Below are positions 30,435 through 63,154 of a stretch of 64,000 nt of DNA, piece after piece. Source of the stretch: an uncultured Hyphomicrobiales bacterium (lineage in GTDB: Bacteria; Pseudomonadota; Alphaproteobacteria; Rhizobiales; TMED25); assembly GCA_905181735.1 (NCBI GenBank), contig CAJIYR010000010.1, forward strand, positions 1-64,000. Direction: 5' to 3'. Each line of letters opens with the position of its first letter. Position 1 is the first letter of the stretch. The notes below the pieces were generated by a model. It did no database searches. It worked only from the letters and a program-made list of their open reading frames with translations, and had not been told where the DNA came from. Position numbers and translations under genes: made by a program.

Positions 30435-31394
30435 TTAACTTACACTTAAATTGCGTGACTTTTGCAGTAACTTAAAATGTTCATCCGCATGATATGAAGA
30501 GCGTGTAAAGGGACTAGAAGAAACTAATAAAAATCCTTTAGACTTTGCAACAGTTTCATAATTTCTAAATTCATCTGGATGTATGTAATCCATAACGGGT
30601 GTATGTTTTTTTGTCGGTTGAAGATATTGACCTATAGTTAGAAAATCAACTCCAGCAGATCTTAAATCGTCCATAACTTGAAGAACTTCATTTCTTTTTT
30701 CTCCTAATCCAAGCATTAATCCTGATTTTGTAAATATTTTAGGATTAATTAATTTAACATTATGCAGAAGATTCAATGAATGATAATAACGTGCACCTGG
30801 TCTAATTGTTAAATAATTAGATGGGACAGTTTCTAGATTATGGTTAAAAACATCAGGCGAGGCCTCAACTACTAATTCATAAGATTTATCTTTTCTAAGA
30901 AAATCTGGTGTCAAAACTTCTATGGTTGTTTTAGGCGATAGTAATTTAATCTTATTAATAACTTCAGCAAAATGCATGGCGCCACCATCTGGCAAATCAT
31001 CTCTATCCACGGATGTTATTACAACATGTTTTAATTGAAGTTCTTTTACTGCTATTGCTATATTATCAGGTTCCGTTTTATTTAAACTCGCAGGTATACC
31101 AGTCTTTACGTTGCAAAATGAGCAAGCTCTAGTACAAGTGTCTCCCATTATCATCATAGTTGCATGTTTCTTTTCCCAGCATTCACTAATATTTGGGCAT
31201 GCAGCCTCTTCACAAACAGTAACTAATTTTAGCCTGTCAAGGGTATCTTTTGTAAAATTATAACCTTCAGATAACCGAGATCTAACCTTTATCCAGTCAG
31301 GTCTTTTTAGTTGCTCTAAATCTGGTTTTCCAACATGTTGCGGTTGTCTTAAAGTTTTATCTTTTGAAGATATATTGTTTATAATATTGACCAT
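30435..31394 (-). CDS. lipA: Lipoyl synthase
   Basis: Radical SAM enzyme of 319 residues inserting two sulfur atoms into octanoyl groups on E2 subunits and GcvH. The auxiliary-cluster cysteines are in [12 protein letters not shown] (about residues 61-72), and the SAM-cluster cysteines in CTRACSFC (about 87-94). The late [13 protein letters not shown] holds the conserved serine ligand. It lies 21 bases downstream of lpd and so directly in the pyruvate dehydrogenase operon whose E1-beta and E2 lipoyl domains it must modify. No lipB is in this window. Confidence 0.96.
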
Positions 31395-45876: not shown

Positions 45877-47019
45877 TTATAAATTATTAAATTGTTTAAT
45901 TGCAAAACTATCACTCATACATGCAATAAAATCACAGATTAATCTATTGTTTGATTTATTGTTAACACCATAACTATTAAACCAATTATCTGGTAGAAAA
46001 TTTGGATTTTTAGAATAAAATTCAAACAATCTTTCTAGGGCTATTTTACCATATTCTGAATTATCTAGAACGTTTTTATTTTTATACATGTTTTTATATA
46101 AAAAATTTTTTATTTTTATAATTTCTACATTTAGTTTTTCTGAAAAATTAACAATTGTATCTTTGGACCGTCCGATGTCTGTGTATTTCGTGATATTAGA
46201 TTTTTCTATCCTTCGAGCAGACTCGTCAACAACATCGTGGATTAAATGATTAATCAAGCTTCTGATCATTTCGTATACTTTTATATTATTATCCATGGTA
46301 CCAAACTTTATGGTATTTTTATCTAGTATTTGATTAATAATAGAAATATCTTTTAAATCATTTATTGTAAAAAAACCTGCTCTTATACCATCATCTAAAT
46401 CATGACAATTATATGCAATATCATCAGATATTGATGCTATTTGCGCCTCAAGAGAAGGCTGAGAAGTCAGATCAAGTTTTTCTTCTTCGTTTAATCTTGA
46501 GTAAAATAATTTGCTTTTAATTACCTCGATATCAATTGGCCCATTATGCTTCAATACTCCTTCTAATGTATCTGTTGTGAGGTTAAGACCGTTAAAATTA
46601 GCGTATCTTTTTTCAATTTTAGTAATAATTCTATATGTTTGTATATTATGGTCAAAACCCTGGTCATCAGACATTATATTATCTAAAACATCCTCTCCAG
46701 CATGGCCAAATGGAGGGTGACCTAGGTCATGTGATAAGGAAATTGCTTCAGTTAGAGGTTCGTTTCCTCCAATAAATAAATTAAGAGATCTGGCTATTTG
46801 TGATACTTCAAGGGTATGTGTGAGTCTATTGCGATAATGATCGCCTTTATCAGATGTAAAAACTTGCGTCTTATTTGCTAATCTTCTAAATGCAACGGAA
46901 TGCATAATTCTATCCCTATCCCTATGATAGTCAGATCTATGTAAAAGAGGATCCTCTTTATAAAGTCGCCTAATAGCTTGATGGGGAATATCATTATTAA
47001 TTTTATTGTATACATTCAT
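45877..47019 (-). CDS. dgt: dGTP triphosphohydrolase-like HD-domain protein
   Basis: HD-superfamily enzyme hydrolysing deoxynucleoside triphosphates, 380 residues from the ATG at 47019 (MNVYNKIN); an in-frame ATG six codons earlier is possible. The metal-binding residues appear in RLTHTLEVSQIARSL and LSHDLGHPPFGHAGED (about 96-111), with HSVAFRRLANKTQVF before them and SISDDIAYNCHDLDDGI later. Diverges from erpA across a gap of 85 bases. The dgt-erpA-xthA neighbourhood is standard in alphaproteobacteria. Confidence 0.93.
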   Translation of the reverse strand: MNVYNKINNDIPHQAIRRLYKEDPLLHRSDYHRDRDRIMHSVAFRRLANKTQVFTSDKGDHYRNRLTHTLEVSQIARSLNLFIGGNEPLTEAISLSHDLGHPPFGHAGEDVLDNIMSDDQGFDHNIQTYRIITKIEKRYANFNGLNLTTDTLEGVLKHNGPIDIEVIKSKLFYSRLNEEEKLDLTSQPSLEAQIASISDDIAYNCHDLDDGIRAGFFTINDLKDISIINQILDKNTIKFGTMDNNIKVYEMIRSLINHLIHDVVDESARRIEKSNITKYTDIGRSKDTIVNFSEKLNVEIIKIKNFLYKNMYKNKNVLDNSEYGKIALERLFEFYSKNPNFLPDNWFNSYGVNNKSNNRLICDFIACMSDSFAIKQFNNL

Positions 47020-47090
47020 ATATGTTATTATAATCAAAATTATAGTTAAAGGTATATATTAGATATAATTATTTAAGATATACGACTTAT

Positions 47091-47096
47091 AGGAGA
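47091..47096 (+). promoter_or_regulatory. Shine-Dalgarno sequence deciding the erpA ATT start
   Basis: AGGAGA at 47091-47096 is a strong anti-Shine-Dalgarno match eight bases before ATT at 47105. The only other purine-rich candidate for the TTG at 47162 is absent. A TATAAT sequence at 47064-47069 could be the -10 box of the erpA promoter, but its -35 region is poor. Confidence 0.6.
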
Positions 47097-47104
47097 ATTA
47101 TACA

Positions 47105-47437
47105 ATTACTGTTAATCCAATAAAAATATCAGATAATGCAGCAAATAAAATTTGTGAATTATTGAAAGAAGAAAATATTGATAGTTATTTCAGGATCTCT
47201 GTAACAGGCGGTGGCTGTTCTGGTTTTCAATATGAGTTTTCTACAGATCATCAAGTTACAAATAATGATGAAATATATGAGCATAACGAAGCTAGAATAC
47301 TAATAGATAAGATTTCTATTAAATTTTTACTTGGTTCAGTAATTGATTATAAGGAAGATTTAATCGAATCATCATTTAAAATAAACAACCCAAACGCAGC
47401 ATCTTCGTGTGGTTGTGGAACAAGTTTTTCAATTTAG
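47105..47437 (+). CDS. erpA: Iron-sulfur cluster insertion protein ErpA, proposed ATT start
   Basis: A-type Fe-S carrier delivering clusters to apoproteins such as LipA and Complex I subunits. The three ligand cysteines are present: one in GGGCSGFQYEF (Cys38) and the last two in SSCGCG (Cys102, Cys104). From a TTG at 47162 the protein would lack the conserved first strand and helix. The frame is open upstream to a TAG at 47090-47092 and reads TVNPIKISDNAANKICELL, which matches A-type carriers, but it has no ATG, GTG or TTG. ATT at 47105 with AGGAGA eight bases before it gives 110 residues, the usual size. Stop is directly followed by xthA. Confidence 0.9.
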   Translation: MTVNPIKISDNAANKICELLKEENIDSYFRISVTGGGCSGFQYEFSTDHQVTNNDEIYEHNEARILIDKISIKFLLGSVIDYKEDLIESSFKINNPNAASSCGCGTSFSI

Positions 47438-48229
47438 ATGGAATTTACACTAACAACTTGGAATGTAAATGGAATAAGAGCAAGAATAGAGAATGTTACT
47501 GAATGGCTAAATATTAACAATCCAGATATTCTCTGCCTTCAGGAAATAAAATGTCTTGAAGAAGATTTTCCAAAAGAAATATTTACTTCAAAAGGTTATA
47601 ATGTTTATTTAGTAGGACAAAAATCTTTTAACGGTGTTGCTATAATTTCAAAATTTTCGTCAATTGAAACCAAAAAAAATATAATTTGCGTCTCTAATGA
47701 TATGCAATCAAGATCGATCGAATGTACTTTTGAAATTAACTCATTCAAGTTTATAGTGTGTTGTATCTATTTGCCAAATGGAAATCCTATCGATACAGAT
47801 AAATTTACCTATAAAATTGAGTGGATGGATAACTTAAAAAATTATATTAAAAAAGAATTAACAAAAGAAATTCCTTACGTTGTACTAGGAGATTTTAATG
47901 TCATACCAACAAGAAATGATGTCAAAAATTATGAAGAGTGGATTGATGATGCGCTCTTCAACAAACTTAGTATAAAAAAATACAGAGAATTAGTTAACAT
48001 AGGACTATACGATTGTCATAGACTTAAACAAATCCCATTTAAGCAATACACACAATGGGATTACCAAAGAGGTGCTTGGCAAAATAATAATGGGGTTAGA
48101 ATAGACCATATACTCTTATCTTCATATGCAACAAGATATCTAACTGGCTATAAGATAGATAGAAACGAAAGATCTAAAAATAAGCCCTCAGATCATGTCC
48201 CTGTAACTGCAATGCTAAATATTGCTTAA
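47438..48229 (+). CDS. xthA: Exodeoxyribonuclease III / AP endonuclease
   Basis: Base-excision repair nuclease of 263 residues. Family motifs: LTTWNVNGIRAR (N-terminus), DILCLQEIKCLEEDFP with the metal-binding glutamate, FNGVAIISK, YVVLGDFNVIP (about 147-157) and the C-terminal KPSDHVPVTA with the catalytic Asp-His. The ATG follows the erpA stop immediately, so the two genes are translated together. It ends back to back with valS: their stop codons are adjacent. Confidence 0.95.
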   Translation: MEFTLTTWNVNGIRARIENVTEWLNINNPDILCLQEIKCLEEDFPKEIFTSKGYNVYLVGQKSFNGVAIISKFSSIETKKNIICVSNDMQSRSIECTFEINSFKFIVCCIYLPNGNPIDTDKFTYKIEWMDNLKNYIKKELTKEIPYVVLGDFNVIPTRNDVKNYEEWIDDALFNKLSIKKYRELVNIGLYDCHRLKQIPFKQYTQWDYQRGAWQNNNGVRIDHILLSSYATRYLTGYKIDRNERSKNKPSDHVPVTAMLNIA

Positions 48230-61682: not shown

Positions 61683-63113
61683 CTAAAACAATGAAAGTGC
61701 TGCTTTTTCGGCAATATCTGTTATTAAAGAAGGTCTAATAAAAAATAAAATAACCGGTATGGCAGTAATGTAAATTATTAATTTCATTCTTTTAGTAATA
61801 GGTTCAAATACATTGATATTTTCATCAAAATATATTATTTTTATAATTCTTAAATAATAAAAAGCACCAATTACACTAGCTAAAACACCAATTATCGCAA
61901 GAGCATAAAGACCAGATTCTATTGCAGATAAAAATATATAAAATTTAGCAAAGAAGCCAGCTAGTGGCGGTATACCTGCAAGAGAAAATAAAAACATACT
62001 CAGAACAAATGCAATCATAGGGTTTACCTTCGAAAGACCCGACAGATCTGAAATGCTTTCAATATTAGTACCATTAACCTTAAGAGACAATATGCATGCA
62101 AAGGTACCAATAACCATGAATACATAAATCGTAAGATAAATAAGCAAACCGGTAACACCTGAAATAGTACCTGTAGCAAGTCCAATAAGAACAAAACCCA
62201 TGTGCCCAATTGATGAATAGGCAAGTAGTCTTTTAACATTATTTTGCCCAATAGCTGCAAATGATCCCAATAACATTGAAGCTATTGAAATAAATATTAT
62301 CATTAATTGCCATTGGTCTATTAAAGAAGGAAAGCAATTAACCATAATTTTTGTAAACAACGCAACTGCAGCTACTTTTGGAGCGCTAGCAAGAAATGCA
62401 GTAATTGTTGTTGGAGAACCTTCATAGACATCGGGAGCCCACATATGAAACGGTACAACAGATATTTTAAACGCTAAACCTGCAGTTAAAAAAGCTAACC
62501 CAAATAAGATACCTTGATTAGAATTGTTTTCTGATAAAAAACTAGCGATATCAGAATATAGAATAGAACCAGAAAAACCATATATTAGTGATAGCCCATA
62601 CAGAAGCATGCAAGAAGATAAAGCGCCAAGTACAAAATATTTTAAACCAGCTTCGGTTGATTTTTTTGATTCTCTTCTCATTGATGCTAATACGTAGAGT
62701 GGAAGACTTTGTAGCTCAAGACCAAGGTATAGCGATATTATATCATTAGAAGAAACCATAACCATCATTCCAATAACTGATAGCAGTATTAGAACAGGGT
62801 ATTCAAACTTCATAATTCCAATAGTTTTCAAATAACCGCTTGATATAATTATAATTCCTATTGATGAAAGAAGAATGAGTGATTTTGTATAATTAGAAAA
62901 ATCATCAGACAGAAACGAAGAATTAAAAGCATAACCGAGAGGTATATATTCCAAATTAATAATAACTAGAACACTGGTTAATAACAAGACTGAAAGAAAA
63001 GACACTGTCTCATAAGATTTTTCTTTTTTAAAAACTCCAACCATTAGAAGAACCATTGCACCTAATGCTATAAATAGTTCAGGTAATGCAGGTAAATAAA
63101 ATAATCCGGTCAC
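61683..63113 (-). CDS. nuoN: NADH-quinone oxidoreductase subunit N
   Basis: Proton-pumping antiporter-like membrane subunit of Complex I, 476 residues with about 14 helices. The conserved transmembrane region includes YLGLELQSLPLYVLASMRR (glutamate of the TM5 type, about residue 133), FKISVVPFHMWAPDVYEGSPT (about 216-236; lysine and histidine of the proton path) and RLLAYSSIGHMGFVLIG. It lies 41 bases downstream of nuoM and four bases upstream of birA, at the tail of what should be a complete nuo operon outside the window. Confidence 0.95.
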   Translation of the reverse strand: MTGLFYLPALPELFIALGAMVLLMVGVFKKEKSYETVSFLSVLLLTSVLVIINLEYIPLGYAFNSSFLSDDFSNYTKSLILLSSIGIIIISSGYLKTIGIMKFEYPVLILLSVIGMMVMVSSNDIISLYLGLELQSLPLYVLASMRRESKKSTEAGLKYFVLGALSSCMLLYGLSLIYGFSGSILYSDIASFLSENNSNQGILFGLAFLTAGLAFKISVVPFHMWAPDVYEGSPTTITAFLASAPKVAAVALFTKIMVNCFPSLIDQWQLMIIFISIASMLLGSFAAIGQNNVKRLLAYSSIGHMGFVLIGLATGTISGVTGLLIYLTIYVFMVIGTFACILSLKVNGTNIESISDLSGLSKVNPMIAFVLSMFLFSLAGIPPLAGFFAKFYIFLSAIESGLYALAIIGVLASVIGAFYYLRIIKIIYFDENINVFEPITKRMKLIIYITAIPVILFFIRPSLITDIAEKAALSLF

Positions 63114-63154
63114 GTTAAATTCCTAACTTATTAAATTGCAATAACATAATATTT

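Follow-up and report, generated by a model that had tools for sequence, protein, structure and literature searches.

We analyzed the erpA locus in a stretch of 64,000 nucleotides (the window) taken from a genome (G000) of 1.39 Mb. The features of the locus are listed in Table 1. The erpA frame is open from 47093 until the TAG at 47435-47437, and the only ATG, GTG or TTG in it is the TTG at 47162. An earlier sequence-only reading had reported that no ATG, GTG or TTG lies between the in-frame stop at 47090-47092 and this TTG, and its coordinates were exact. It had also placed AGGAGA eight bases ahead of an ATT at 47105; this spacing was confirmed (spacer 47097-47104), and the ATT is the first near-cognate codon at a usable distance from AGGAGA. 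As that reading had said, the window also encodes LipA (30438-31394) and complex I (NuoN, 61686-63122). At the downstream end, the erpA stop and the xthA start abut at 47435-47440 (TTTAGATGG), and xthA lacks a strong Shine-Dalgarno sequence (SD) of its own, so translational coupling of the two genes is possible.

Table 1. Features of the erpA locus in the window (G001 is the congener used for comparison)
Feature	Coordinates	Strand	Basis
dgt (dGTP triphosphohydrolase), divergent gene that delimits the erpA leader region	45877..47019	-	
In-frame stop TAG, closes the frame upstream, overlaps the SD	47090..47092	+	sequence; kept in G001
SD, AGGAGA	47091..47096	+	identical in G001; last G of AGGAG 9 nt before ATT
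Candidate start codon ATT (AUU)	47105..47107	+	sequence and G001 comparison
erpA CDS, 110 aa plus stop, A-type Fe-S carrier	47105..47437	+	NF010147, PF01521, 2apn, dN/dS
TTG, sole ordinary start codon of the erpA frame; rejected as start	47162..47164	+	TTA in G001; no SD before it
xthA (exodeoxyribonuclease III)	47438..48229	+	TIGR00195; ATG directly abuts the erpA stop

The erpA product scored 124.3 bits against the NCBIfam model NF010147 (cut-off 117), whereas its scores with the SufA and IscA equivalog models were under their cut-offs. It also matches Pfam PF01521, and its best solved relative is PDB 2apn (E 9e-31). In an alignment of six relatives, the cluster cysteines Cys38, Cys102 and Cys104 (C-x(n)-C-x-C) were invariant. 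The match to NF010147 begins at residue 4. Translation from TTG 47162 would yield a protein of 91 aa and, as the sole in-frame ordinary start, this codon is the expected choice of a gene caller. However, starting there would remove the conserved first strand and helix covered by both the ErpA model and 2apn, and the TTG has no SD before it.

The leader was compared with that of G001, the single congener compared, which comes from a separate assembly and whose ErpA protein is 86% identical; a scan of genome contigs returned no genus member. The G001 leader TATAGGAGAATTACACAATTACTGTTAAA has the stop, SD, spacer and ATT all as in the window, with one change in the spacer and no ordinary start, and the leader common to both congeners reads TAGGAGAATTAyACAATTACTGTTAA. 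The block ATAGGAGAATTAtACAATTACTGTTAAt matches G001 at 26 of its 28 positions, compared with 22 of 60 in an ungapped comparison of the preceding 60 bases; a gapped alignment of these bases is better than 22/60 and still clearly less conserved than the block. The sequence-only reading had proposed aligning erpA upstream regions from relatives, and in the one congener both the non-canonical ATT and AGGAGA are conserved, with no ATG there. G001 carries TTA where the window has TTG 47162, and in its erpA frame the sole ordinary start codon is codon 79 of 114 (codon index 78). TTG 47162 therefore cannot be a start common to both species, and its use in the window is extremely improbable. A start further upstream, reading through the TAG, was also considered and rejected; the upstream sequence offers no start in this frame, and G001 keeps the stop.

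The G001 comparison also bears on whether an ATG is missing through a sequencing or assembly error or through gene decay. In either species taken alone, an ATG could be masked by a single-base event. However, the same sequence occurs in a different species whose assembly is independent. The reading frame is also intact, and comparison of erpA with its G001 counterpart shows strong purifying selection (dN 0.074, dS 0.97, dN/dS about 0.08). Error or decay is thus as improbable as the TTG start. Since the independent G001 keeps the SD and ATT and lacks the TTG, assembly error, decay and a TTG start are excluded as explanations common to the two species.

To place the erpA spacing in context, we used 21 genes whose strong SD keeps the same spacing in the two species. 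Counted from the last G of AGGAG, the start lies 5-8 nt away in 18 of the 21, 9 nt away in one, and 1 or 14 nt away in the other two. The gene erpA has a near-cognate codon behind an SD, and its corresponding distance of 9 nt is usable; it lies at the long end of the genus range, which counts against the ATT. A strong SD (AGGAG, GGAGG or AAGGAG, ending 5-9 nt before the site) precedes 0.26% of the ATT, ATA and ATC sites in the window, and the combination of SD and ATT exceeds chance. Initiation at another non-standard codon of the block was also weighed. ACA 47102 lies 6 nt from the SD, which is the modal spacing here, and ATA 47120 is near-cognate and conserved; in contrast, ACA has two mismatches to AUG, ATA is 24 nt from the SD, and ATT is the only near-cognate codon at a usable distance. 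Such a start is unlikely, with only a slight chance of being the one used. The reading of ATT 47105 as the erpA start codon is thus strongly supported by the sequence comparisons, and erpA very probably initiates at AUU in the cell.

Other searches gave negative results. A search for the 16S gene, which would carry the anti-SD, found no match in the G000 genome. Rfam gave no match for a structured leader or riboswitch at erpA, and a promoter scan showed nothing above chance. A structured erpA leader was rejected as a candidate, as the predicted folds were weak and differed between the species (-4.3 vs -5.7 kcal/mol).

The sister genus provides a further comparison. Two of its genomes, G002 and G003, have a clear erpA, whereas the other family genomes had no match, or one that was weaker and more distant. 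G002 and G003 both read GGAGTTTATACAATTATGAAC, in which an ATG comes immediately after the same TATACAATT. Their erpA genes (L004 and L005, ...TATACAATTATGAAC) have adjacent candidates, the ATT 8 nt and the ATG 11 nt from GGAG. Among 116 ErpA-family matches, some of them distant paralogs, G000 and G001 alone have no ATG, GTG or TTG at, before or one codon after the match start. Because the sister genus has an ATG just after the same ATT, the AUU-only state is specific to the genus. We infer that the ATG was lost in this genus or gained in the sister genus, and that the ATT already behind the SD would serve as the start. The putative AUU-only initiation is carried by only two species and need not be ancestral to the family.

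A rival account is that the AUU is a weak start that remained once a neighbouring ATG had been lost; erpA would then be expressed constantly at a low level, with no physiological role for IF3-linked regulation. At the corresponding place the sister genus reads ATTATG. If the congeners' ancestor underwent a small indel, the ATG would be deleted and the ATT behind the SD would be left as the default; the restriction of the AUU-only state to one genus fits as well. However, the ATT, SD and spacer are nearly invariant while the flank has diverged, although one substitution would give an ATG. The retention of the ATT by two species suggests that it is at least not harmful. We consider this account a serious one, with a chance a little short of even.

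We surveyed start codons by comparing 697 kb of G000 (about half the genome) with 919 kb of G001. An earlier, unfiltered survey had flagged many frames, in which conserved leaders and shadow frames mimicked lost starts; removal of shadow frames left 431 ortholog frames. No shared ordinary start was found in three of the 431 (erpA with ATT, infC with ATA, and an NDUFA9-type gene), besides the frameshifted prfB, a count that depends on reading by eye because the filtered list was judged that way. The prfB gene (RF2; G000:C5:80874-81917 and about 70 bases before it) is divided in two by an in-frame stop, as is usual for its programmed frameshift, and its short first frame begins at ATG.

In infC (G000:C6:122351-122902, L033), the ATA lies behind AGGAGG, and an ATA behind an SD-like sequence was present in all 14 family genomes compared (L033 together with L032, L034, L035 and L258-L267). 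The IF3 of G000 is conventional and can be aligned over its length to bacterial IF3 of solved structure. A conventional IF3 and an infC that begins at ATA suggest that IF3 discrimination probably operates in this bacterium. The NDUFA9-type (complex I 39 kDa-like) gene lies at G000:C6 116530-117501 (L198), and its product matches complex I structures in the PDB (NDUFA9 chains, E 1e-44; 9g83_P, E 8e-63). No usable ATG, GTG or TTG was found for this gene in any of the 12 family genomes whose sequence extends to the N-terminus (L198-L202, L204 and L206-L211); its candidate starts are ATA, ATT or ATC, some of them behind GGAG (G004, G010), and the AUH start is conserved as a class across two genera. 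Other families mostly carry an ATG or GTG close to the N-terminus. For deliberate use of such starts, the NDUFA9-type gene with its family-wide AUH start may be a stronger case than erpA.

Starts of this kind are known from other bacteria. According to the summary in PMC5472188, E. coli infC starts at ATT and is autoregulated by IF3; like erpA, it has a near-cognate AUH start behind an SD and is IF3-discriminated. Unlike erpA, it encodes IF3 and forms a feedback loop, which is not expected for erpA since erpA does not encode IF3, and the erpA start is a prediction from sequence. The E. coli pcnB gene has an AUU start and is translationally limited (Binns and Masters 2002, cited in PMC13009471). 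Like erpA, it is a chromosomal gene other than infC with an AUU start that would limit expression, whereas its function is unrelated and erpA is AUU-only in one genus among the genomes compared. In S. aureus, cvfC1 (AUU), ccpN (AUA) and infC (AUA) show the pattern of an SD and a weak start, and reporters with the non-canonical starts tested there reached about 10% of the AUG level in RPMI medium (PMC13009471). cvfC1 and ccpN resemble erpA in having a conserved AUU or AUA start and a strong SD outside infC; in contrast, their starts have been experimentally mapped, and an extended SD with longer spacing is a feature of S. aureus. Streptomyces sigR starts at GTC, is repressed by IF3 and shows the same pattern of SD and weak start (PMC5472188). 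As is proposed for erpA, a non-canonical start puts a gene other than infC under IF3; however, the codon differs and the regulation of sigR has been demonstrated. That erpA joins the known class of bacterial genes starting at AUU, AUA or AUC (infC, pcnB, cvfC1) is strongly supported by the sequence evidence. No earlier report of an AUU start on erpA was found in the literature searched.

The model that we propose is as follows. The 30S subunit would be placed on the erpA mRNA by AGGAGA, and the initiator tRNA would pair with AUU at two of the three bases. As AUU is an IF3-discriminated codon, erpA would be made at a reduced level, which would drop as IF3 activity rises, as in E. coli infC; xthA, through its abutting start, would perhaps be under the same limit. 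Given the established mechanism of IF3, erpA output is likely to be sensitive to IF3 dose, and we hold with good confidence that an AUU-started, SD-placed and IF3-discriminated erpA is the best overall explanation. The sequence-only reading had suggested "IF3-dependent translational control" of erpA, which is plausible, and a start that is merely weak is equally compatible. Use of the IF3 sensitivity as physiological regulation is doubtful. A still broader idea, that a small AUH-start regulon in this family ties respiratory complex I to IF3, is improbable; IF3 (AUA), the NDUFA9-type protein (AUA/AUU/AUC) and, at the genus level, ErpA (AUU) would rise together at low IF3 activity, so that initiation fidelity would set complex I assembly.

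Few AUU-start genes are known outside infC, and they are beyond the reach of gene callers. Here an Fe-S carrier gene has a conserved AUU start and a complex I accessory gene a family-wide AUH start. Taken together, the two suggest that this genome-reduced lineage uses IF3-discriminated starts on respiratory genes.
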